Shown: positions 47,700 to 61,874 of the stretch, one piece after another | How positions within the stretch are numbered: position 1 is the first letter of the stretch | Layout of the letters: every line of letters starts with the position of its first letter | Assembly: GCA_002718415.1 (NCBI GenBank) | Contig: PBEM01000006.1 | Location: 208,350 to 272,349 of the forward strand | Reading direction: 5' to 3' | Source of the DNA: Chloroflexota bacterium | GTDB taxonomy: Bacteria > Chloroflexota > Dehalococcoidia > Lucifugimonadales > Lucifugimonadaceae | DNA: 64,000 nt | Notes under the pieces: model-generated | Seen by the model: the letters and a program-made list of their open reading frames with translations, nothing else | Told to the model about the DNA's origin: nothing | Database searches by the model: none | Position numbers and translations under genes: made by a program

Positions 47700-49226
47700 T
47701 TAATTATCTTGTAATTCATACCCTCCCCAATTTTTTACAATAGTTTTTCTTTCCATTCGCTTCATATTATTGATTTTAGGGTCTTGATAAAATGAATCAT
47801 TGTTGTAATGAGTAGTTGAGAGTTCTTCAAATATCACGCCTGTTTTAGTAGTAAAAGAATGCCATACCATAGGTTGTACCACTAATTTATCTCCCGAGGA
47901 TAGTTTTTTTATTGAACCATTTAAATTTACCTCGAGATCTCCATGAAGAACAAAGTAAGTCTCCTCTTTTCTTTTATGATAATGATTTGGATGTACTTGA
48001 CCAGGTATTTGAACAATTATTTTTTTACAATAATCTCTATTAACTATAGTAATTAGAGCAGCACCTGTTTTTAGAAAATTTTTAATTCCAGTATGGTGTG
48101 AAAATTCTAAATCAAATTCAGTACCTATTATTGTTCTAGATTCATTTATTAAAGCTTTTATTTTATGTATAAAATGCTGGAGAATTAAATGATCTGGTAC
48201 TTTTGGAAATTTTAAATTTTCAATTAGTAAAGGTTCATTTGTTTTTATATCAGTTTTCGCAATAATATCGTTTTTCCAATTACCACTAAATAATTGCGCA
48301 TTTAAAAAAGGCATAGCAAAAAAAGTATCAGATGTTTTTATTGTTTCTCCTTTATTTATATTTTTATTTGCATAAACACCTCTCCATAGAGACTTTAGGG
48401 CTGTTTTTTCTTCTTCAGTTCTATTAATTTCTATATCTGATCCACATAATAATTTTGCTTTATTGTATTTTTCTATCCAGTTGCTTATCTGTTTTTTGTT
48501 AGCAGAATATTTATTTAATGATGTAATTTCTCCAGATAAACTTCCGACATGTTTTTCAAAAATTCTAGCTCCTTTAGAATAAGCGACCATAATTACATCA
48601 TTATCTTCGGGATCTTCATGTGTAGACCATCCGATAGTTATATTTGGATATCTTTTGGACATAAATTCTATTTGATTTAACTCACATAAATCAGTTGGTG
48701 TAGGATAAAGACTGACACAGTGCATTAAAGCAAAATCTAAACCTCTATGTTCTGAAAAACTAACAATTTTATCTATTTCATCGAGTGTTAATCCACCTGT
48801 TGAAATAATTAAGGGTAAATCTGAAAGTGATGCTCTTTCTAATAATGGCCAATCTGTAGCCGAACAACTTCCGATTTTTATGATATCGAAACCCATCTCT
48901 TCAATTTTGTCGACTGATCTTTCATCAAAAGGTGTGCAAATTGAGAATAAATTATTAGATTTTGTGTGATCTAATAATTCTTTAAATTGTTCATTATTTA
49001 GTTTTGTTGATAAGAATCTTTTAATATGAGTTGGTTCATCAGAATTTATATAGTCAGGATGTATAAAAGAATCTAACTGCCTAAATTGGAATTTTACGGC
49101 AGATTTTAGGTTATTATCAATAGAGATTTCGCTACATTCATTTATTATTTGTTTTCCGTGAGCGATATCTCCTTGATGGTTATTAGCCATTTCGAAAATG
49201 AATAAATCTTTAAAGTCAAATTTCAT
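47700..49226 (-). CDS. NeuB-type sialic-acid-like synthase with SAF region and C-terminal cupin
   Basis: EMANNHQGD, VKFQFRQ, STGGLTLDEI, RGVYANKNINKGETIK (SAF-like), then HPNHYHKRKEETYFVLHGDLEVNLNG cupin. Confidence 0.88.
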   Translation of the reverse strand: MKFDFKDLFIFEMANNHQGDIAHGKQIINECSEISIDNNLKSAVKFQFRQLDSFIHPDYINSDEPTHIKRFLSTKLNNEQFKELLDHTKSNNLFSICTPFDERSVDKIEEMGFDIIKIGSCSATDWPLLERASLSDLPLIISTGGLTLDEIDKIVSFSEHRGLDFALMHCVSLYPTPTDLCELNQIEFMSKRYPNITIGWSTHEDPEDNDVIMVAYSKGARIFEKHVGSLSGEITSLNKYSANKKQISNWIEKYNKAKLLCGSDIEINRTEEEKTALKSLWRGVYANKNINKGETIKTSDTFFAMPFLNAQLFSGNWKNDIIAKTDIKTNEPLLIENLKFPKVPDHLILQHFIHKIKALINESRTIIGTEFDLEFSHHTGIKNFLKTGAALITIVNRDYCKKIIVQIPGQVHPNHYHKRKEETYFVLHGDLEVNLNGSIKKLSSGDKLVVQPMVWHSFTTKTGVIFEELSTTHYNNDSFYQDPKINNMKRMERKTIVKNWGGYELQDN

Positions 49227-49269
49227 AATTTATTTATATAATGTTTTTATATTATTCAAAATCATATCA

Positions 49270-50568
49270 ATGAAAATATTAAAACATGTAAATAAACAAA
49301 TAAGATTAAAATTTTTTTATGGGTATAAGTTTTTTTTAATGAAATTTTTTTTCCTAAGTCTAAAGTTCAAAGTTTTAATCATTACAGTCTTTTTTCTTAA
49401 TTTATTAATCGATAGAAAGGAAAGAAAAAATATTCATGGATTAGCGTTAGGGAGAAGTATATTCAATGAAGATATTAAAGTTTTAAATAAAACTTCTGAT
49501 ATTGTTTCATATGATAATTTATCTGGTTCATTTTTCAATTATTTAATTACTGAATATATATCTAAGGACATTTTAAAAAAAAGTATTATTCAATACCAAC
49601 TTGACAATAAAAATCGAAAAAAGATCTATAAATTGATTAGTAAAGTAATTTATAGGTTATTGAAATTAAATAAATATGATTTCATTATTAATTGCAACTA
49701 TGATTATTTAAGACATCAAGAAATTGCGCAATATTGTGTGGATAACTCTATTCCTTATTTAGTTTTTTATAAAGAAGGTATAAATTCAAAAAAATACCAT
49801 AAAAATATTGTAGATAATCAAACTAAAATTAAATTTATAGGGACGAAATTACTTGTTCCTAGTAAGGGAATAAAAAGTGCTTTTGTAAATAGTGCAGATA
49901 AAGATTTAAATAATAATAATGTAGCTGTAGTTGGAGTACCTAGATTAAATAATTTAGTTATTGAGAATGAAGAAAAACTTATAAGAAAAAATACAAAAGT
50001 TAAACAGGTTCTTTTATTATCTTTTACACCAGAAGAAAAATTAACATATCATGATAAAATTTCTGAAAATTATATACATGAATTAGCTAAAAATATGCAC
50101 ATAGATATTTTTAATTGTGCGAAAAAATATCCTGATATTAATTTTATTATAAAAACTAAAGTACCTAATCATTACCAAGAATATGTTGAGGATTTATTAT
50201 CTAATAGTGGAGAGATTCCTTCGAATTTAATTATAACTTCCAAGGGTTCATCAATTAGGTATGTTTTTGATTCTGATATAGTTTATGGTTTTTATACTAC
50301 TGTTTTATTAGAAGCGTATATTGCCAATAAAATAATTTTAACAATAAAAGGAAATGATAAGATCGGGATTGAAGAATTTTTTAGTAAAGATCATTCTGGA
50401 GTGAATTTTAGGTTTGATGATTCAAGTTTATATAATTTAATTTATAGTTACAATTCCAACAAATTACAATCTAAAAGATCTATAGATGTAATGAATGAAT
50501 TTTTTGAAGTTTTAGATTCTCCAAATTTTTTAATTGACAAAGAACTTTTTAAGATTTTAAGAAAATAA
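49270..50568 (+). CDS. Putative surface-carbohydrate glycosyltransferase (GT-B-like / CDP-glycerol-transferase-like)
   Basis: C-half INFIIKTKVP...FDSDIVYGFYTTVLLEAYIANKIIL resembles a GT-B nucleotide-binding half; location in glycan cluster. ORF opens at 49198. Confidence 0.55.
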   Translation: MKILKHVNKQIRLKFFYGYKFFLMKFFFLSLKFKVLIITVFFLNLLIDRKERKNIHGLALGRSIFNEDIKVLNKTSDIVSYDNLSGSFFNYLITEYISKDILKKSIIQYQLDNKNRKKIYKLISKVIYRLLKLNKYDFIINCNYDYLRHQEIAQYCVDNSIPYLVFYKEGINSKKYHKNIVDNQTKIKFIGTKLLVPSKGIKSAFVNSADKDLNNNNVAVVGVPRLNNLVIENEEKLIRKNTKVKQVLLLSFTPEEKLTYHDKISENYIHELAKNMHIDIFNCAKKYPDINFIIKTKVPNHYQEYVEDLLSNSGEIPSNLIITSKGSSIRYVFDSDIVYGFYTTVLLEAYIANKIILTIKGNDKIGIEEFFSKDHSGVNFRFDDSSLYNLIYSYNSNKLQSKRSIDVMNEFFEVLDSPNFLIDKELFKILRK

Positions 50569-50587: not shown

Positions 50588-51301
50588 ATGAGTATAGTTG
50601 CATTGATTCCTGCAAGAGGGGGCTCCAAATCAATTCCTGATAAAAATATAGTAAATTTATTAGGTATTCCACTAATTGAATATACTATAAAAATTGCAAA
50701 AGAATCTAAATTAATAGATAGGGTTATAGTAAGTACTGACTCAGAAAAAATTTCTGAAATTTCTCGAAAATTAGGGGCGGAAGTACCTTTTTTGCGCCCA
50801 GCTGATATTTCAAGAGATGAAAGCCCTGATATTGATGTTTTTTCACATGCTGTTGATTGGTTAAAAAACCATCAAAATTATCAACCAGATCTATTGGTTC
50901 ATTTAAGAGTGACTTCTCCTTTTAGAGAAACTGAGATAATTGATGACGCTATAGATAAAATACTCAATAATCCTAACGCTGATTCTTTAAGATCAATTTC
51001 CATTCCAAGTCAATCTCCTTTCAAAATGTGGAAAATTCTTGATGATAAATTAAGTCCATTAATTCAAACTAATATTCTTGATCATCACAGTATGCCTCGC
51101 CAAACATTACCGGCAGTTTACTGGCAAAACTGTTATGTGGATATAGTAAGAACCAAAACAATAAAGAAATATAAATCTATGACCGGGAAAAATATTATCC
51201 CATATATTATAAAATCTAAATATATACTTGATATAGATGATGAAATTGATTTAAGTCTTGCTGAGATAATAGGAAAAAAATATTTCAATAAAAAAATTTA
51301 A
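50588..51301 (+). CDS. Acylneuraminate cytidylyltransferase-like (NeuA/CMP-sugar synthetase)
   Basis: ALIPARGGSKSIPDKNI nucleotidyltransferase motif; FLRPADISRDESPDIDVFSHAVDWL. Confidence 0.9.
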   Translation: MSIVALIPARGGSKSIPDKNIVNLLGIPLIEYTIKIAKESKLIDRVIVSTDSEKISEISRKLGAEVPFLRPADISRDESPDIDVFSHAVDWLKNHQNYQPDLLVHLRVTSPFRETEIIDDAIDKILNNPNADSLRSISIPSQSPFKMWKILDDKLSPLIQTNILDHHSMPRQTLPAVYWQNCYVDIVRTKTIKKYKSMTGKNIIPYIIKSKYILDIDDEIDLSLAEIIGKKYFNKKI

Positions 51302-51354: not shown

Positions 51355-52308
51355 ATGAAAATTTTAATTACAGGAGGAGGAGGATATGTAGGAAGTCTTC
51401 TGGTTGATAGATTATTGAAGGATGATCACGAATTAGTTATTTTAGATACTTTTTGGTTTGGTAATAATTTAAATAAACATAAAAACATAAAAATTATCAA
51501 GGCAGATATTCGTGAAAAAGATACTTATAACTATTTAGATGAAGATATAGATGTAGTATTTCATTTGGCTAATATAGCTAATGATCCAAGTGGTTTAATT
51601 GATTCAAAATTAACTTGGGAAACTAATGTTCTTGCTACAAAATTAATTTCTGAATGGTCAATAGATATGGGTGTGAAGAAATTTATTTATGCTTCTTCAG
51701 GAAGCGTTTATGGTGTAAAAGAAGAAGAAAAAGTTACTGAAGATTTGCCTTTAGAGCCTATATCTGACTATAACAAAACTAAAATGATTAGTGAGAGAGT
51801 TTTGTTGAGTTATAGTAATGAAATTCCTGTATATATACTAAGACCGGCAACAATATGTGGTTTTTCCCCAAGAATGAGATTAGATTTAACTGTAAATATT
51901 CTAACTTTTCATGCATTGAATTTTGGAGTAGTAAATGTTTTTGGTGGGGACCAAATTAGACCTAATATTAATATTAAAGATATGATTTCTACATATAAAC
52001 ACTTTCTCTATTCTGAAATTGATCCTGGGGTTTATAATGTAGGATTTGAAAATCTTTCTGTTAAAGATATTGCAAATATCATTTCAGAAAAATTTAATGT
52101 CCCAATAAATTTTTCTGATTCAAACGATCCAAGATCATATAGGCTAAATTCAGATAAATTATTATCTACTGGCTTTGTTCCTAAATTTTCAGTTAATGAT
52201 GCTATTGAAGAAATTGATTATATGTTTAAAAAGAATTTAATTAAAGATTATGATTTGAATTATAACGCTAAGATTATGGATAAATTAAAAAAAGATGGTG
52301 TTATTTAA
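51355..52308 (+). CDS. NAD-dependent epimerase/dehydratase (extended SDR)
   Basis: ILITGGGGYVGSLLVDRLL, YASSGSVYG...YNKTK. Confidence 0.92.
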   Translation: MKILITGGGGYVGSLLVDRLLKDDHELVILDTFWFGNNLNKHKNIKIIKADIREKDTYNYLDEDIDVVFHLANIANDPSGLIDSKLTWETNVLATKLISEWSIDMGVKKFIYASSGSVYGVKEEEKVTEDLPLEPISDYNKTKMISERVLLSYSNEIPVYILRPATICGFSPRMRLDLTVNILTFHALNFGVVNVFGGDQIRPNINIKDMISTYKHFLYSEIDPGVYNVGFENLSVKDIANIISEKFNVPINFSDSNDPRSYRLNSDKLLSTGFVPKFSVNDAIEEIDYMFKKNLIKDYDLNYNAKIMDKLKKDGVI

Positions 52309-52316
52309 ATATCAAA

Positions 52317-52868
52317 TTATTTCCAATTATTTTTATTTGCGATTTTATTAATAATTATTGAAGCATCCTTTAAGTTTTTACATGTAAAATTTTGGCCAAA
52401 ATTTAATTTTTTTGAAGATATAAGTATTGTGGGAATTTTTGCATTTATTCCAGTCTGAATATCACTTTTTTTATCTCCAATCATTATTGATTTTGTTAGT
52501 GGAATATTAAATTTTTTTGCAGCTAAAATTAGATTTAATATTTTTGGTTTTCTGCATTTACACTGATCTTTTTCTAAGTGAGGACAAATATATATTTCAT
52601 CAATTATTTTATTTTTATCATTGATTCGTTTTAGTAATTCTGTATTAAAATTATTTACTTCTTCAATATCAAAAAAACCTCTATTTATTCCAGACTGATT
52701 GGATATTATTGTTATTACTGCTCCAGATTTTTTAATTTTATTTAAACCTTCTTTCGAATTAGGCAATAATTCTAATTGGGAAATTTTGTGTGGATATCCT
52801 ACATCTTCTACGATTGTTCCGTCTCTATCAATAAAAACGATGAACGAATATTTATTATGATTTATCAT
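52317..52868 (-). CDS. gmhB: D-glycero-beta-D-manno-heptose-1,7-bisphosphate 7-phosphatase-like HAD phosphatase
   Basis: FIDRDGTIVEDVGYP, ISNQSGINRG, CPHLEKDQCKCRKP (Cys-rich zinc loop), MIGDKKSDIQTG. Confidence 0.88.
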   Translation of the reverse strand: MINHNKYSFIVFIDRDGTIVEDVGYPHKISQLELLPNSKEGLNKIKKSGAVITIISNQSGINRGFFDIEEVNNFNTELLKRINDKNKIIDEIYICPHLEKDQCKCRKPKILNLILAAKKFNIPLTKSIMIGDKKSDIQTGINAKIPTILISSKKLNFGQNFTCKNLKDASIIINKIANKNNWK

Positions 52869-52915
52869 ATTAACAATTGTTATAAAAGAGATTTATCTTT
52901 TTAGGGGAATCAATT

Positions 52916-54460
52916 TTGAGTAATCTGACTGAAGATCGAAAGAAAATACTTTCACTTGAAGAATTAAATAAATTATTAGGTGATTTAAAATTTAGTAACA
53001 AAACTATTGCTCATTGTCATGGAGTTTTTGATCTTTTACATATTGGTCATATAAGACATCTAAAAGAAGCATCTGAATTAGCTGATATATTGATAGTAAG
53101 TATAACTTCAGATAGATTTGTAAATAAAGGGATAAATAGACCTGAATTTAATTTTAATTTACGTGCGGAAGTAATAAGTTCATTAAGTTTTATTGATTTT
53201 GTTATTATAAGTGATTTTCCTACAGCGATAGAGATGATTTCAATAATTAAACCAAATTATTATGTTAAAGGCCCAGATTATTCAGATGATTCAAAAGATA
53301 TATCTGGTGGAATTATTGAAGAAAAGAGAAAAGTGGAATCTTATGGAGGTAAGATATATTTTACTAAAGACATCCAACATAGTTCATCAAATCTTTTAAA
53401 TAAATATTTCAGCAAACTATCTGATGAAACTATTATAGAAATCAATAAAATTAAATCTCGATTATCTTTTGAAAATATATATAATGAAATTGAAAAAATG
53501 AACAAGTTATCTGTGCTTGTTATAGGGGAAGCTATTATTGATGAATATCAATATTGTTCTGCTATCGGAAAATCTAGTAAAAGTCCTACTTTAGCCGTTA
53601 AATTAGATCATTCTGAATTATCTTTAGGAGGAAGTTTATCTATCGCTAAACACGTTGAGGATTTTATCAATAATGTTTCAGTTATTTCTACAGTAGGGGA
53701 TGATTACTATTCTAGAGAATTTATTCCTAAAAAAATTAGTCCTAATTTAGATTTAAATTTAGTCATATCAAAAGACCAAAAAACTATACTAAAAAGAAGA
53801 TTTGTGGAAACTTATTTTTTTCATAAGCTTTTAGAGGTTTATGATTCTACAGGTTGTAATTTAAGTAAATCAGAAAATAAATATTTATTAGATATATTAG
53901 AAAGATTGATTTCCAAATATGATATTGTATTAGTTTCAGACTTTGGACATAAAATGATGTCTAATGAAATAATAGACATAGTACAAAATTCTTCGAAATT
54001 TCTTTCAGTAAATGTTCAAATGAATGCAGCTAATACAGGTTTTAATACACTATCAAAATATTCTAAAGCAGATTATGTTTCTATTACCGAATCAGAATTA
54101 AGATTAGATTATAGAGATAAAGATTCGTATGTTAATGATTTAATTAATGATGCAGCCGATAGATTAGGTACAAATCTATTTTCAGTAACTCGAGGTAGTT
54201 TGGGGTCTATAGTTCATTCAAAGATTGATGGTATTTATAGTATTCCAGCTTTAATAAATAGTAATGATGTAATAGATAGAGTAGGTGCTGGCGATGCATA
54301 TTTTGCAATTACTTCAGTATTAGCTTCTTTGAAACCTCATCCTGAAATGCTTGGTTTATTAGGGAATATGTCAGCAGCTTATGCTACGCGTATAGTAAGT
54401 AATAATAAATCGATCAATAAATTAGAAATAATTAAATCAATAGAATCTTTATTAAAATAA
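52916..54460 (+). CDS. Bifunctional cytidylyltransferase-like (N-term) / PfkB sugar kinase (C-term)
   Basis: AHCHGVFDLLHIGHIRHL (HxGH nucleotidyltransferase) followed by LSLGGSLSIAKH...DRVGAGDAYFAI (PfkB catalytic motif). Confidence 0.87.
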   Translation: MSNLTEDRKKILSLEELNKLLGDLKFSNKTIAHCHGVFDLLHIGHIRHLKEASELADILIVSITSDRFVNKGINRPEFNFNLRAEVISSLSFIDFVIISDFPTAIEMISIIKPNYYVKGPDYSDDSKDISGGIIEEKRKVESYGGKIYFTKDIQHSSSNLLNKYFSKLSDETIIEINKIKSRLSFENIYNEIEKMNKLSVLVIGEAIIDEYQYCSAIGKSSKSPTLAVKLDHSELSLGGSLSIAKHVEDFINNVSVISTVGDDYYSREFIPKKISPNLDLNLVISKDQKTILKRRFVETYFFHKLLEVYDSTGCNLSKSENKYLLDILERLISKYDIVLVSDFGHKMMSNEIIDIVQNSSKFLSVNVQMNAANTGFNTLSKYSKADYVSITESELRLDYRDKDSYVNDLINDAADRLGTNLFSVTRGSLGSIVHSKIDGIYSIPALINSNDVIDRVGAGDAYFAITSVLASLKPHPEMLGLLGNMSAAYATRIVSNNKSINKLEIIKSIESLLK

Positions 54461-54470
54461 ATTATTAAAA

Positions 54471-55040
54471 ATGAAAAAAATTAGTCTAATCAAATATGCT
54501 TCAGATATAAATGAAGTAATAAATAATTTATTAGTTACTGATAACAATGGTGATAAGTTATCAATAAATCATGGCTGTGATCGATTTATTGAATTAGTAA
54601 AAAAAGTCAGAGAAGACAGAAAAAAAATTATTATTATTGCTAACGGTGGAAGTGTTAGTACCGCTTCTCATTTTCAAAATGATTTAGTTAAAGCTTGTAA
54701 TGTAAGAGCTCTTATATATTCTGATCAACCACTACTAACAGCATTGGCAAATGATTTAGGTTATGAACATATTTATGATGTTCCATTTAAATTATGGATA
54801 GATAAAGATGATTTATTAATCATAATTAGCTCTTCAGGAGAATCAAAAAATTTAATTAATGTATCTAATTATGCGCAAGATAAAGAAATTAAAATTATCA
54901 CTCTAACAGGATTTAAATCTGATAATTATATAAGAAATCAAGGCGACATTAATTTTTATTTAGATTCTTATAGTTATGGGATAGTTGAAAATGCTCATGC
55001 TATTATCACTCATTTTATTACGGATAAAATAAAGGATTAG
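54471..55040 (+). CDS. gmhA: SIS-domain phosphoheptose isomerase-like protein
   Basis: IIIANGGSVSTASHFQNDLVKA...IIISSSGESKNLINV. Confidence 0.8.
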   Translation: MKKISLIKYASDINEVINNLLVTDNNGDKLSINHGCDRFIELVKKVREDRKKIIIIANGGSVSTASHFQNDLVKACNVRALIYSDQPLLTALANDLGYEHIYDVPFKLWIDKDDLLIIISSSGESKNLINVSNYAQDKEIKIITLTGFKSDNYIRNQGDINFYLDSYSYGIVENAHAIITHFITDKIKD

Positions 55041-55045
55041 TATAA

Positions 55046-56146
55046 TTGCTATCTTCAAAATTAAAAAAGATTATTCCTACTCCTATAAAAATTTTAAAAA
55101 GAAAAACTTTCAATTATTTTGAGAATAATTTTATTAGTACTTATGGAAGTAAAGATAAAGATCTTTTTATTGGACCTTGGCTGGGTGATGTAGGAAAAGA
55201 ATTAATGTATTGGATTCCATATGTTCGTAAAATGAACAAAGATGGGAAATTATTATTTAGGAAAGCTTATGCTGTTTCTAGAGGTGGGGTGGAAGAATGG
55301 TATGGAGGTTTAGCAGATGGTTATGTAGAGATTCTTGATCATATTGATACAAATTTTTATAGACAACCTTTTGAAATTCAACAAAATAGAAATTCGGGTA
55401 AAGAAGTACCTGAGGTTTCTAATTTTGGAAATGAAGGTCAAAATCAGTTTAAAATATCCGATATAGAAAGGAAAATAATTTCTGATTATGCTTTAAAAAA
55501 TAATATTAGTAAATATGAGATTTTTCATCCTTCAGTTATGTGGAAAAATTCTAGAGATAGATTAATTAGAGATGGTAGAGTTTTGTCATTACAAGAAATA
55601 GATGCGATAAATTATTGGGAAAAATGTAATAGAACTACAGAAAAATATTCAAAAATAGTAGATAAATTAGATTTACCCGATAAATTTATCGCTTCAAAAT
55701 TTTATTTTCACCCTACAAATCTTTTAGAAACAGAAGAAAATAAAATTCATATTAATAAATATATTAATAAATTATCTAAAACACAAAAAATTGTTGATCT
55801 TTCCGCTCCTCTTTCAGTTGATGAATCAATACCACACATATTAGATCATGATAATAAAAATATTATAAATGTACCCATAATTTCTCAAGATAATATAAAT
55901 TTAGGGATTCAAACTGAAATAATTAGGAGATCTGAAGGATTTGTTGGCACATGGGGAGGTGTAAGTGTTTTACCTGCTTTACTGGGCAAACCTCATATAG
56001 GTTTTTTTTCTGGACACGTCAGAGATATTCATCCTGATTATTGTTATCATAATTTATTGTTCACATATTTATATGAAGAATTAAATGACGTTCCTATAAA
56101 ACTTATAGATATAAAAAAATCAGATTTATTAGGAAATTTATTTTAG
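55046..56146 (+). CDS. Hypothetical protein of surface-glycan locus, possible glycosyltransferase
   Basis: 366 aa; IGPWLGDVGKELMYWIPYVRKM N-terminus and SEGFVGTWGGVSVLPALLGKPHIGFFSG C-terminus; TTG start. Confidence 0.6.
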   Translation: MLSSKLKKIIPTPIKILKRKTFNYFENNFISTYGSKDKDLFIGPWLGDVGKELMYWIPYVRKMNKDGKLLFRKAYAVSRGGVEEWYGGLADGYVEILDHIDTNFYRQPFEIQQNRNSGKEVPEVSNFGNEGQNQFKISDIERKIISDYALKNNISKYEIFHPSVMWKNSRDRLIRDGRVLSLQEIDAINYWEKCNRTTEKYSKIVDKLDLPDKFIASKFYFHPTNLLETEENKIHINKYINKLSKTQKIVDLSAPLSVDESIPHILDHDNKNIINVPIISQDNINLGIQTEIIRRSEGFVGTWGGVSVLPALLGKPHIGFFSGHVRDIHPDYCYHNLLFTYLYEELNDVPIKLIDIKKSDLLGNLF

Positions 56147-56159
56147 ATAGATAAAAAAA

Positions 56160-57221
56160 CTAAAAAGGTCCTTTGAACCAATTTCCAGGGACATCATGTT
56201 TGAAATCATCAAATTTTTCAGGTAAATTAATTTTTTTAGATAACATTACGGATATTTCTTTTATAATTTCATTAGATTTCGGGTAAAAATTTTCTGTGAG
56301 TCCTGGACTTGTAGGTACCGGGAAATCCGGTAAGGTGATTCTTCTTGGAGATTGTTTTAATTTAGAAAAACATTCTTCAACAACGAAAGTTATTATTTCT
56401 GAAGATACTGATGCAAATCTGTTAGCGGTATCTAGAACTAAAAGATTGCCAGTTTTATTAACGGAAGAAATAATTGCTTTTGAATCAATTGGTTTAATAC
56501 TTCTTAGATCTATTAATTCACAGGATATATTATGTTCTGATAAGAGTTCAATAATTCTAATTACTTCTATTGTCATATATGACATACTCACAATCGTAAT
56601 ATCATTCCCTTTGTTAATGACATTTGCTTTGCCTATAGGTATTCTATAGTCTCCCTCAGGAACTATTCCGATTTGATTGTAGAGCCATCTATGTTCTATA
56701 AAAATCACTGGATCATTGTCAAAAATACTTGATAATAATAATCCTTTAGCATCATATGACGTACTTGGCATAATGACTTTTAATCCAGGAATATGAGAAA
56801 ATAATGCTTGTAAATTTTGTGAATGTGTTGGACCTTGCCCCCAACCTCTACCGACTATTAAGCGATTAGTAATAGGTACTGTATTCGCACCGTTAAACAT
56901 GTAATGCCATTTTGCTGCATTATTAATAATTTGATCTAATGTTAAAAGTGAAAAATCTGTTCTCTGATGTATAACTACAGGCCTAATTCCATCCATTGCA
57001 GCCCCTATAGCTATTCCAGTATTGGCATTTTCTGATGTGGGAGGATCTATTACCCTATCAGAACCATATTTTTCTTTTAATCCTAGAGTTGTCCCAAATA
57101 TTCCTCTAGGATCTGTTGCTCCTAATCCTAAACAAATTACATTATCATCAATAGACATAGCTGTATTTAAAGCATCATTAATTGCTTCTACGAAAGTAAT
57201 TTCTTTATTTTTTTTATTCAT
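56160..57221 (-). CDS. 2-oxoacid dehydrogenase-type E1 beta subunit
   Basis: TFVEAINDALNTAM, FGTTLGL, PPTSENANTGIAIGAAM, transketolase-like beta architecture. Confidence 0.88.
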   Translation of the reverse strand: MNKKNKEITFVEAINDALNTAMSIDDNVICLGLGATDPRGIFGTTLGLKEKYGSDRVIDPPTSENANTGIAIGAAMDGIRPVVIHQRTDFSLLTLDQIINNAAKWHYMFNGANTVPITNRLIVGRGWGQGPTHSQNLQALFSHIPGLKVIMPSTSYDAKGLLLSSIFDNDPVIFIEHRWLYNQIGIVPEGDYRIPIGKANVINKGNDITIVSMSYMTIEVIRIIELLSEHNISCELIDLRSIKPIDSKAIISSVNKTGNLLVLDTANRFASVSSEIITFVVEECFSKLKQSPRRITLPDFPVPTSPGLTENFYPKSNEIIKEISVMLSKKINLPEKFDDFKHDVPGNWFKGPF

Positions 57222-58183
57222 AATTTTTCTGAATATAAATTTTCATATGCTTCTTCCTGATTAGGAAAATTAGATTCTTCAGCGAATTTAAAAGCATTTT
57301 TTGTTAGAGTCTTTAGATTTTTTAGGATGGTATGTTTCTTTAATTTTATTAATTCGGGATATTTTTTTTCTAAAATTATTATAGGATCATTTTCTCTACT
57401 TTTTTTAATGTCATTAATAGTCCTATAACCAAGTTCATCATCATAATTAGGGCCACAATGTTCGAGCCATCTATAAGTATGTAATTCAAGAAATTTAGGT
57501 CCTTCTCCTTTTTTTATTTTATTTACAAGTTGTGCTGTTTTTTCTTGTACAGCAATAACATCATTACCATCACATTCGGAAGAGTCTATTCCTAATCCTG
57601 AAACCATTTCAAAAATTTTTCTATTTTGAGGCTGTCTTTCTGATAAATGCGTAAAGCACGAAAATTGATTATTTTCACATACGAATAGAACTGGTAAGTT
57701 TTTCAATATTGCAAAATTTACAGATTCATAAAAAACACCTTCTTCTATAGCTGCATCTCCAAAGAATATACATGTAATATTTTCACTATGTTTTAGTTTT
57801 TGAGAGAATGATAAACCGACACCTACCGGTATAGTACCTGCTACTATTGCCGTACTTCCCATAAATCCTACATTGGTATCAATTAAATGCATTGATCCTC
57901 CCTTTCCACCTGAACAACCTGTTTCTTTACCGTATATTTCAGCTATCAATTTCTTTATATTTCCACCTTTAGCAATATAATGATGGTGAGCTCTATGACC
58001 TGAAACAGCATAATCATTTTTATTAAGAGAGGCGCAAACTCCCACAGCTGCAGCTTCTTGTCCAATAGCTATATGTGTTGGGCAACGCATTTTTTCTTCG
58101 GAATACCGATATGAAATCTCTTCTTCGATTAATCGTATTTTTAAAAGTTCTTCGTAAAGTCTTTCAACAAGGGTTATATTCAT
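57218..58183 (-). CDS. Thiamine-pyrophosphate-dependent dehydrogenase E1 alpha subunit
   Basis: GHRAHHHYIAKG, GGKGGSMH, GDAAIEEGVFYESVNFAILKNLPVLFVCENN (TPP motif). Confidence 0.92.
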   Translation of the reverse strand: MNITLVERLYEELLKIRLIEEEISYRYSEEKMRCPTHIAIGQEAAAVGVCASLNKNDYAVSGHRAHHHYIAKGGNIKKLIAEIYGKETGCSGGKGGSMHLIDTNVGFMGSTAIVAGTIPVGVGLSFSQKLKHSENITCIFFGDAAIEEGVFYESVNFAILKNLPVLFVCENNQFSCFTHLSERQPQNRKIFEMVSGLGIDSSECDGNDVIAVQEKTAQLVNKIKKGEGPKFLELHTYRWLEHCGPNYDDELGYRTINDIKKSRENDPIIILEKKYPELIKLKKHTILKNLKTLTKNAFKFAEESNFPNQEEAYENLYSEKL

Positions 58184-58352: not shown

Positions 58353-59624
58353 ATGAATATAGCGAAATATTTTAGAATCTTAATTTTTTGGATAGGTCTT
58401 TTTTTTGTAGAATTAGTTCTATTATTTGTAATTATTGAATATTCTGGTATTTTTAATTTAACTAGATCAATTTATAGAATATCTATTGGTTATGAAGAGG
58501 CCCAGGATAAAAAATATCAGGATATAATTGAATATTATGGAAAAGATTATTCTCAATCTATAAATCCGATATCTGTTCATCCATATGAACCATTCAATAT
58601 TCAATATATTCATCCATTTTTTTTATTTTCTTCCGCATGGAGAGATAAACAAATTCAAATAACAAATAACTCTGTAGTTTCAGTTGAACCTGATGGATTT
58701 AGACCTTCTTATGATAATTTATCTTCATCAAAAGGGATTATTTTAGGGGGTTCTACAGCTTTTGGAGGAGGTGCTACAAGTGATTTAAATACTATTTCTA
58801 GTGTACTAAATCTTAAGCAAAGCTCTATTAATTTTAGAAATAGAGCTATACAGAGTTGGAATAGTCATCAAGAGCTAATTTCTTTAGTAAAAAGCATAAA
58901 TAACGAGGATGAGTATGTAATTTCCTTGACTGGATTTAATGATCTTGTTAATGGATGGGCTATTAAGTGTACCGATGAAGAATTACCATTAGATGCTCAA
59001 CATGATTTTTTACTTGTAGAAAAAGTTATTGGAGATATTAAAGATTTTCATACGTATACAAATTTTTCAGAAGTAGTAAGAACTTATTTACCAAAAACCC
59101 ATAGATTAGCAGTTAAAATCAATCAACATTTCTTTAATGATGGGAATATTAAAATTACTAGTTTCTGCGATTTAGAAGATCAAGATTTTTTTGATATAGC
59201 AGAAACTTTTATTGAAAATCAATTAAGGATGGTAAAAATTTCTGAATCTTATGGAGCAAATTTTTATACTGTTATTCAACCTAACGCTCATTTACATAAT
59301 ATTCCCTCTTCTCTCGTTGATTTTTCAGATCAATCTAAGGAGATTACATATAATTTAAATGGGGATTTGTACACTCTGTATGCGAATACATATAACCCTT
59401 TAGATGATTCTGAATATGATCCTAGATTATTAAACTACTCGGAGAAATATTTTTCTATAATTTTAAAATCTGATTATTGTAAAAATTACTGTATTGATGC
59501 TACCAATATTTTTGATAATCAAAATGAACCACTTTCAAATTTTCTAATAGATGCAGTTCACTTAAAAGATTCAGGAACTGAAACGTTAGTAGATTATTTA
59601 TTAGAAAATATTAATATTAAGTAA
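58353..59624 (+). CDS. SGNH/GDSL hydrolase-like membrane-anchored protein
   Basis: N-terminal TM helix; GIILGGSTAFGGG, SLTGFNDLV, and C-terminal DAVHLKDSGTE (DxxH). Confidence 0.72.
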   Translation: MNIAKYFRILIFWIGLFFVELVLLFVIIEYSGIFNLTRSIYRISIGYEEAQDKKYQDIIEYYGKDYSQSINPISVHPYEPFNIQYIHPFFLFSSAWRDKQIQITNNSVVSVEPDGFRPSYDNLSSSKGIILGGSTAFGGGATSDLNTISSVLNLKQSSINFRNRAIQSWNSHQELISLVKSINNEDEYVISLTGFNDLVNGWAIKCTDEELPLDAQHDFLLVEKVIGDIKDFHTYTNFSEVVRTYLPKTHRLAVKINQHFFNDGNIKITSFCDLEDQDFFDIAETFIENQLRMVKISESYGANFYTVIQPNAHLHNIPSSLVDFSDQSKEITYNLNGDLYTLYANTYNPLDDSEYDPRLLNYSEKYFSIILKSDYCKNYCIDATNIFDNQNEPLSNFLIDAVHLKDSGTETLVDYLLENINIK

Positions 59625-59626
59625 TA

Positions 59627-60778
59627 ATGAAACAAAATCACCATAATTATTTACCAGATCAGTACAAATCCACAGACGATTTAAAAATAAATCATAATTA
59701 TCTTAAAGAACAATTTTCGGATTCAGATGAGATATTTAATGAGATTAAGACTTTAGTTAGAACGGGTGATTTTACTTTAGGAAAAGTTGTTGATGAATTT
59801 GAAATAGAATTTTCTAAGGTTACTAAAACTAAATTTTGTGTAGGAGTAGGAAGTGGAACTGATGCTATTTTTTTAAGTCTTAAAGCATTGGGAATTGAAG
59901 ATGGAGATGAAATTATTACATCACCTTATACTTTTTATGCAACTATAGGGGCCATTGTCACCGCTGGTGCTAGACCCGTATTTGTAGATATTGGCTACGA
60001 TTATAATATCGATGTAAAAAAAATTGAATCTGCAATTACTTCAAAGACTAGAGCTATAATTCCTGTTCATTGGTCAGGTCATTTATGTAATATGGAAAAA
60101 ATTAATCAGATTGCAACAAAACATAATTTATTAGTGGTTGAGGATGCCTGTCATGCTATTAATGCAGAAAGAAATAAATATCGTGCTGGTAATTTTAGCA
60201 ATTCAGCATGTTTTAGTATGCATCCACTAAAAAACCTGAATGTTTGGGGAGATGGAGGGGTGATAGCTACAAATTCTGAAAATCTTTATAATAAATTACT
60301 TCTATATAGGAATCATGGGTTGATTAACAGAGATATATGTGAAGTTTTTGCGTACAATTCACGGTTAGATTCTATACAAGCTATTGTAGGTAAAAATTTA
60401 TTAAGAAGAATTGATTCCATAACAAATTCTAGAATAAATAATGCAAATTATTTTGACAAGAATCTTTCTAAAATCCCGCAGATTACTATCCCACAAAGGG
60501 ATAAAAATTTTAAACAAGTTTTTCATCTATATATAATTCGAGTTGAACAAAGAGATGAGCTTCAGAAATATTTAATTAGTAATGGGATTGATGCAAAAAT
60601 TCATTATCCTTTACCAATGCATCTTCAACCTGCAAGTAAAGAATATGGATATCAAGAAGGAGATTTTCCTATTGCGGAAGAAATTTCTAAGAGTATTATT
60701 TCATTACCTGTACATGAATATATATCTAAAAATCAACAAAATGAAGTTATTGAAAAAATATTAAAATTTTATGAGTAA
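59627..60778 (+). CDS. DegT/DnrJ/EryC1/StrS-family sugar aminotransferase, paralog 1
   Basis: VGVGSGTDAIFLSLKALGI, EDACHAINAE, SACFSMHPLKNLNVWGDGG (PLP lysine). Confidence 0.94.
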   Translation: MKQNHHNYLPDQYKSTDDLKINHNYLKEQFSDSDEIFNEIKTLVRTGDFTLGKVVDEFEIEFSKVTKTKFCVGVGSGTDAIFLSLKALGIEDGDEIITSPYTFYATIGAIVTAGARPVFVDIGYDYNIDVKKIESAITSKTRAIIPVHWSGHLCNMEKINQIATKHNLLVVEDACHAINAERNKYRAGNFSNSACFSMHPLKNLNVWGDGGVIATNSENLYNKLLLYRNHGLINRDICEVFAYNSRLDSIQAIVGKNLLRRIDSITNSRINNANYFDKNLSKIPQITIPQRDKNFKQVFHLYIIRVEQRDELQKYLISNGIDAKIHYPLPMHLQPASKEYGYQEGDFPIAEEISKSIISLPVHEYISKNQQNEVIEKILKFYE

Positions 60779-61874
60779 ATATTTAAAAGTAGATTATGTT
60801 AATTTAGGGTTGCAATTTCAAAATTTAGAACAAGAAATCACAGATAAATTCGTCGAGATTTCCTCTAAAGGTTCATACGTATTGGGCGAAGAGCTTAAAG
60901 ATTTTGAAGAATTATTTTCTGAATATTGCGGTACTAGTTATGCTGTAGGAGTAGGAAATGGATCAGATGCTATTTTTTTTAGTCTACTTGCATTAGGTAT
61001 CGGAAATGGAGATGAGGTTATTACTACACCCAACTCGTTTATTGCAACAGCCTGGACTATCATTAATATCGGAGCCAAACCGGTTTTTGTAGATATTGGA
61101 GATGATTATAATATTGATCCAAATAAAATTGAATCGGCAATAACATCTAATACCAAAGCTATAATTCCAGTACATCTTACAGGTAAGATTTCTAAAATGG
61201 ATGAAATACTAGAAATTTCTAAAAAACATAATCTTTATGTAATAGAAGATTCTGCTCAAGCGGTGGGTGCAACATTAGATGATAAAAAAGCAGGTTCTTT
61301 TGGTATTACTGGTTGTTTTAGCCTACATCCATTAAAAAATTTACATGTCCATGGGGATGGAGGTATGGTTACTACAAATGATAAAAAAATATATAACTAT
61401 CTTAATAAAGTAAGAAATCATGGATTAGTTAATAGAGATGAATGTGAATTTTGGGGATATAACTCTAGATTAGATGAAATTCAGGCTGCGATAGGAAAAA
61501 TTAAATTACCATATTTAAATCAATGGAATGAAAAATCACGCAAAATAGCTTATAAATATACCGAAAACCTTATGGATAATGTTGGTGTTCCTATAGATAA
61601 AGATAATGAAAAACCCGTGTATCAAACTTATGTGATTAATACGGATTATCGTGATGTATTACAAAACCATTTACATAAATTAGGGGTAGAAACAAAAATT
61701 CATTATCCGATTCCAATTCACTTACAAGAATCGGCCAAAAAATTAGGATATTCCAAAGGAGATTTTCCGATCACTGAAAAACAATCTTCAAGAATTTTAA
61801 GTCTTCCTATTTATCCAGAAATGAGAGAAGATCAGATTGATCATGTTATTAAAAGTGTCAATGAGTTTTTTTAA
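60771..61874 (+). CDS. DegT/DnrJ/EryC1/StrS-family sugar aminotransferase, paralog 2
   Basis: VGVGNGSDAIFFSLLALGI, EDSAQAVGAT, GCFSLHPLKNLHVHGDGG; 8-bp overlap with upstream gene. Confidence 0.94.
   Translation: MSKYLKVDYVNLGLQFQNLEQEITDKFVEISSKGSYVLGEELKDFEELFSEYCGTSYAVGVGNGSDAIFFSLLALGIGNGDEVITTPNSFIATAWTIINIGAKPVFVDIGDDYNIDPNKIESAITSNTKAIIPVHLTGKISKMDEILEISKKHNLYVIEDSAQAVGATLDDKKAGSFGITGCFSLHPLKNLHVHGDGGMVTTNDKKIYNYLNKVRNHGLVNRDECEFWGYNSRLDEIQAAIGKIKLPYLNQWNEKSRKIAYKYTENLMDNVGVPIDKDNEKPVYQTYVINTDYRDVLQNHLHKLGVETKIHYPIPIHLQESAKKLGYSKGDFPITEKQSSRILSLPIYPEMREDQIDHVIKSVNEFF

Follow-up and report, generated by a model that had tools for sequence, protein, structure and literature searches.

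A 64,000-nucleotide stretch of a Chloroflexota genome (hereafter the window, from contig PBEM01000006.1) encodes a protein in which a nucleotidyltransferase domain precedes a PfkB-type kinase domain, and our analysis of this fusion, its relatives and their neighboring genes points, with a probability of roughly 0.7, to a dedicated nucleoside diphosphate (NDP)-sugar pathway for a surface glycan that is not that of HldE and that would run parallel to ADP-heptose synthesis, yet be distinct from it. The functional unit is a cassette that extends beyond the three genes at positions 52317-55040 and includes short-chain dehydrogenase/reductase (SDR) and thiamine pyrophosphate (TPP) enzymes. Judged from its sequences, the product of this cassette is probably a different surface sugar, perhaps a branched one.

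The fusion protein and its relationship to HldE

An earlier note on this DNA had described GmhA-like and GmhB-like genes flanking a fusion whose HxGH nucleotidyltransferase is N-terminal and whose PfkB kinase is C-terminal, the reverse of E. coli HldE. All three open reading frames were found (Table 1), the Pfam domain positions (CTP_transf_like, residues 35-130; PfkB, residues 199-471) bear out the reversed order, and the motifs that had been singled out, GAGD (residues 457-460), GGSLSIAKH and NVQMNAANTGFNTLSKYSKADYVSITESELRL, are all in the fusion. The architecture itself is not new, having already been published for Coxiella CBU0678. The TTG start is preceded by AGGGGA, a good ribosome site, with an in-frame stop upstream at 52883, and the sole alternative in-frame start before 53100 is a TTG at 53090. 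The fusion is a real and conserved gene, because the same three-gene set occurs in the same-genus relative L005 (53% identity), a scan of genome contigs turned up relatives in at least 573 further stretches, and the AlphaFold model is confident, with two domains and a mean predicted local distance difference test score of 89. The same-genus genome G002 carries this gene set.

The top NCBIfam family for the fusion is HldE, with scores that fall far under the cut-offs: 128 bits against the whole-HldE model NF008454 (cut-off 521), 92.5 bits for the kinase against TIGR02198 (cut-off 345) and 99.2 bits for the nucleotidyltransferase domain against TIGR02199 (cut-off 181.5). The GmhA-like protein, which has a SIS domain, is also below the cut-off of TIGR00441 (71.9 versus 209 bits), as is the GmhB-like protein for NF006506 (134 versus 178 bits), yet the latter is its best family and its top PDB matches are D,D-heptose 1,7-bisphosphate phosphatases. 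In a Foldseek search the nearest solved folds to the kinase domain were Burkholderia HldA entries. A family profile compared with PDB chains ranked 5x9q (a bacterial "putative cytidylyltransferase", which we take to be HldC) first and HldA second.

Searching 41 fusion-bearing genomes with the HldE model, in which each half of the fusion scores about 65-95 bits, showed that 32 hold, in addition to the fusion, a canonical heptose kinase scoring 219-542 bits; two more had a canonical nucleotidyltransferase, and seven had neither. Likewise, 19 of 22 carriers encode a canonical GmhA (160-217 bits) besides the cassette SIS protein. In domain trees that included canonical sequences from the same carrier genomes, the main fusion kinases form a clade apart from HldA (support 100/100; stem of 2.1 changes per site) and the fusion nucleotidyltransferases a clade apart from HldC (97/99; stem 1.0). 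Since most carriers hold HldE separately and the clades are distinct, the fusion is not a rearranged HldE, and a swapped or broken HldE is ruled out. The phylogeny of each domain, the scores below the cut-offs, the separate canonical kinases and the switched residues described below all agree with the earlier note that the fusion is unlike bona fide HldE. A second, distant group with reversed domain order (L036-L038, L133-L135, L008) has more canonical-looking kinase motifs; its members L036-L038, L133, L135 and L008 join the kinase tree at weaker support (92/86), and the group could be an independent or an older branch of the fusion.

Comparison of 103 fusion kinases with 30 canonical ones showed that the catalytic set is kept (G204, D209, GG238-239, K293, R295, D342, E394 and GxGD), whereas R218G, I219K, E222K, N242A, N246H, Q304K, R307E and K345H (canonical to cassette) are switched and the canonical D at position 370 is an N within a new NxQxNxxNxG loop. 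Several of the switched positions are presumably on the sugar side or in the lid. The nucleotidyltransferase has switched T34C, N35H, N64T, F99N and P104A (family consensus; the window has S99) around an unchanged HxGH, which, with GAGD, is a catalytic motif of HldE kept across the fusion family. The zinc ligands of GmhA are H61, E65, Q172/175 and H180/183 (PMC5387315). When 37 cassette SIS proteins were compared with 19 canonical GmhA proteins, in reading frames picked by hidden Markov model (HMM), this H, E, Q, H pattern was present in 18-19 of the 19 canonical proteins and replaced by H, D, E, H in practically all cassette members; at the two switched ligands, 37/37 cassette proteins have D and 36/36 have E, where 19/19 canonical proteins have E and Q. 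An arginine eight residues past H61, kept in all 19 canonical proteins, is lost in the cassette SIS proteins. Because catalytic residues are kept while other positions and the SIS ligands switch, these patterns suggest that the cassette proteins are working enzymes with a different substrate. A pseudo-enzyme reading is ruled out by the invariant catalytic residues.

The cassette, its TPP enzymes and its carriers

Gene neighbors were clustered and recounted by HMM over 80 fusion loci, the best 80 of the at least 573 stretches, and 20 canonical HldA loci from the same genomes served as the control. Most relatives are metagenome-assembled genomes (MAGs) and some record titles are doubtful; because several loci have short flanks, the co-occurrence counts are lower bounds. 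The core of the cassette consists of the fusion, the SIS protein (48/80) and an extended SDR, SDR1 (54/80), and a TPP enzyme pair accompanies the fusion in 56 loci, as a split transketolase in 37, as pyruvate dehydrogenase (PDH) E1-like alpha and beta subunits in 20 and as both in one. TPP pairs (Fisher p 3e-9) and SDR1 (p 1e-8) are both absent from all 20 canonical HldA loci, with p-values that ignore shared ancestry, and a chance neighborhood is ruled out by this control. The two TPP types are mutually exclusive apart from the one locus with both (p ~1e-5), and the fusion tree implies at least 8 and up to 14 swaps between them. The companions differ by type: an APH-like kinase, a 207-residue unknown protein and a methyltransferase for the transketolase variant, and two DegT aminotransferases and a second SDR (SDR2) for the E1 variant. 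The window holds the E1 form (SDR1, fusion, SIS, E1-beta, E1-alpha, DegT, DegT), as does Azospirillum oryzae. The GmhB-like gene beside the fusion lies on the opposite strand and is rare near relatives (5/80 loci).

Scored against NCBIfam, the cassette E1-alpha and E1-beta proteins come out as pyruvate dehydrogenase subunits. E1-alpha has the TPP-binding motif GD(G/A)...ENN, the conserved Glu is present in 15/15 E1-beta proteins, and the canonical GH motif of E1-alpha is usually EHCGP in cassette members. In the window genome, two other E1-alpha genes outscore that of the cassette. The split pair, TktN and TktC, has its highest scores with transketolase models, and its GSLGHG, GDGE and GPTH-type motifs are retained. 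PHROG 34187, a family of unknown function, matches both E1-alpha and E1-beta subunits.

By record title, the 80 loci span about a dozen phyla, including one Pacearchaeota archaeon (L080). This small archaeal genome has two fusion copies around one SDR1, and canonical HldE was not found in it. One further record, L110, is titled Klebsiella pneumoniae; it is probably a mislabeled MAG, and its title is unfit as host evidence. Fusion genes are also found on Solidesulfovibrio and Azospirillum plasmids, annotated merely as "PfkB family carbohydrate kinase", and at 33 loci in IMG/VR. The phage cassettes are reduced to the fusion, often the SIS protein, E1 alpha/beta (12/33) and a radical SAM protein (20/33), with few SDRs. 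Two phage contigs that were checked (L126 and L128) carry the fusion, the SIS protein and the radical SAM gene, with the E1 pair additionally in L126; a portal gene is nearby in both and a head gene in one.

The window belongs to a 1.06 Mb MAG that is 74% complete, and the trait is patchy: of about 200 relatives, only a few have a full-length copy. The recovered 74% of the genome yielded neither LpxC nor the heptosyltransferase family (Glyco_transf_9), and no canonical GmhA or additional HldE-like kinase. This fits the suggestion of a Chloroflexota host without lipopolysaccharide (LPS). An LPS core heptose in this host is disfavored, given the lack of LpxC and Glyco_transf_9 in the recovered genome.

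A proposed pathway and its alternatives

In the pathway that we infer, the GmhA-like SIS protein would turn a ketose phosphate into an aldose phosphate, the kinase domain would phosphorylate C1, GmhB, where present, would take off the distal phosphate and the nucleotidyltransferase domain would form the NDP-sugar, making the fusion the activating enzyme. SDR1 and its partners may then oxidize or epimerize the NDP-sugar, and amination by the DegT enzymes is possible as well. The probable contribution of the TPP enzyme, which is E1 alpha/beta in the window and a split transketolase at other loci, is to add or supply a two-carbon unit, likeliest as a branch on a keto-sugar; the reactions, substrates and nucleotide are all predictions, as is the placing of the TPP step before activation (ketose making) or after it (branching). 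In antibiotic pathways, E1-alpha/beta enzymes of the alphaKADH2 type attach acetyl branches to keto-sugars, and glycolyl branching of keto-sugars has been proposed for split transketolases (PMC12247030). Late branching is the role that we prefer, because the two alternative TPP types of the cassette are the very types to which these known and proposed branching enzymes belong. Extending this, we tentatively suggest, at somewhat less than even odds, that the cassette forms a route, widespread among bacteria, carried by phages and occasionally found in archaea, to NDP-sugars with C2 (acetyl or glycolyl) branches for surface glycans, in which interchangeable TPP carboligases act on a shared non-heptose activation core and which includes Coxiella CBU0678 and CBU0686/0692/0693.

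The main alternative to late branching, compatible with the pathway above as a variant of it but rather unlikely, is that the TPP pair acts first, joining a ketol unit to an aldehyde to give an unusual ketose phosphate for subsequent activation by the SIS protein and the fusion. The chain of SIS protein, kinase and nucleotidyltransferase needs a ketose phosphate, the motifs and scores of TktN and TktC are those of transketolases, and the mini-cassettes of phages retain the SIS protein, TPP pair and radical SAM protein with few SDRs; however, PDH-E1-type enzymes usually transfer acyl groups taken from 2-oxo acids rather than ketols, and where alphaKADH2 enzymes are known to act on sugars, they branch keto-sugars. 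We consider it unlikely that the cassette is a true heptose pathway, leading from sedoheptulose 7-phosphate to NDP-D-glycero-D-manno-heptose for a non-LPS glycan, with a TPP pair that only boosts or modifies heptose supply. Such a pathway would account for the presence of all four classical enzyme types and for HldA as the best structural match of the kinase and second, after 5x9q, by profile, and transketolase normally makes sedoheptulose 7-phosphate. Nevertheless, many carriers already hold complete canonical enzymes, kinase and isomerase keep their catalytic residues but have switched sugar-side ones, and GmhB is rare in the cassette. Far less probable is that the E1 proteins are ordinary subunits of a central-metabolism dehydrogenase lying near the fusion by coincidence; despite their NCBIfam scores and the assignment of their Coxiella counterparts to fatty acid metabolism (PMC5423948), E1 genes occur in 0/20 control loci, the genome has two better-scoring E1-alpha genes, EHCGP replaces the PDH-type motif in most cassette members and phages carry E1 genes beside the fusion.

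Several observations weigh against a dedicated non-heptose pathway. HldA is still the top Foldseek match, and a heptose-like substrate is therefore conceivable. In the window, the TPP pair and DegT genes lie close to the fusion without sharing an operon with it, the TPP pair being on the strand opposite the fusion and separated from the DegT genes by a tRNA-Arg, and 24/80 loci show no TPP pair, some of them with short flanks. The Fisher tests disregard shared ancestry and use a control of 20 loci, support in the nucleotidyltransferase tree is modest with L008 long-branched, and biochemistry was found for no cassette member.

The fusion gene is present in hundreds of genomes and readily receives the label of a heptose synthase, which is probably wrong in substrate. 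The cassette defines a group of enzymes that can be assayed jointly and a testable role for the O-antigen gene CBU0678. Should the TPP step be one of sugar branching, a chemistry known mainly from antibiotic sugars would extend to ordinary cell-surface glycans and phages.

The surrounding glycan island and comparison with known systems

Table 1. Cassette genes and other genes of the glycan island in the window
Feature	Coordinates	Strand	Remarks
NeuB-family nonulosonate synthase with C-terminal cupin	47700..49226	-	PF03102 and PF07883; same island, tie to cassette uncertain
PseF/CMP-NeuA-like cytidylyltransferase	50588..51301	+	same glycan island; tie to cassette uncertain
Extended SDR (SDR1)	51355..52308	+	54/80 fusion loci, 0/20 canonical HldA loci
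GmhB-like HAD phosphatase	52317..52868	-	divergent from fusion; same set in same-genus relative L005
Nucleotidyltransferase-PfkB fusion, 514 residues, TTG start	52916..54460	+	nucleotidyltransferase ~28-160, kinase ~195-514
GmhA-like SIS isomerase	54471..55040	+	metal ligands H67/D71/E173/H181 (canonical H61/E65/Q172/H180)
TPP enzyme, E1-beta-like subunit	56160..57221	-	
TPP enzyme, E1-alpha-like subunit	57218..58183	-	TYRWLEHCGP motif; third and most divergent E1-alpha of the genome
DegT/DnrJ aminotransferase 1	59627..60778	+	companion of E1 variant
DegT/DnrJ aminotransferase 2	60771..61874	+	solved relatives include nucleotide-sugar aminotransferases QdtB and WbpE

The cupin-bearing NeuB-family protein shows a weak likeness to D-lyxose isomerase. 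Three further island proteins (49198-50568, 55046-56146 and 58353-59624, all on the plus strand) have no Pfam match, and the first two no NCBIfam match either; homologues of the 55046-56146 product occur in the same-genus relative (neighbor cluster 37). The island is punctuated by tRNA-Met (45816), tRNA-Arg (58259) and tRNA-Val (61947), possible anchors of gene exchange.

The closest published parallel is in Coxiella burnetii, where CBU0678 has the reversed domain order, its loss shortens LPS, its function was called unknown by the authors and canonical HldE is a separate gene, CBU1655 (PMC5843353). The region includes a phosphoheptose isomerase (CBU0674) and SDR genes (CBU0676/0677) (PMC5843353, PMC5423948), and CBU0686/0692/0693 are called pyruvate dehydrogenases and assigned to fatty acid metabolism (PMC5423948). 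The window thus shares with this locus the domain order, linked isomerase and SDR genes and pyruvate-dehydrogenase-type genes, and, compared with the published description, the fusion has the traits of the CBU0678 group in order, HldE paralogy (in relatives) and a glycan island. Coxiella differs in being an LPS-bearing pathogen, whereas LpxC was not found in the window's host. The cassette statistics suggest that CBU0674, CBU0676/0677, CBU0678 and CBU0686/0692/0693 belong together. If the numbering is simply offset, the damaging CBU0678 change G369R would fall within the signature loop or close to it, and P74A close to Pro76, which is invariant in the family.

In Geobacter sulfurreducens, insertions in GSU2085-2087 (hldE, GSU2086, gmhA) caused strong growth defects on electrodes in transposon sequencing (PMC5585712). 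By order and annotation, these genes resemble the GSU2086-type cassettes found here (fusion, GSU2086 family, SIS); unlike GSU2085-GSU2086-GSU2087, the window has no GSU2086-type gene. HldE and the HldA plus HldC pair have the same two folds and catalytic motifs as the fusion and are its nearest solved kinase relatives by fold, but the fusion differs in that its domain order is reversed, its domains form clades of their own, its sugar-side residues are switched and it is a paralogue in most carriers. A literature search for PfkB, nucleotidyltransferase and transketolase fusions returned nothing relevant. Finally, the branching enzymes of antibiotic clusters (aldgamycin, kibdelomycin and miharamycin) belong to the same two TPP types that alternate in the cassette, a family-level resemblance; these alphaKADH2 and split-transketolase branching enzymes are known from specialized metabolites.
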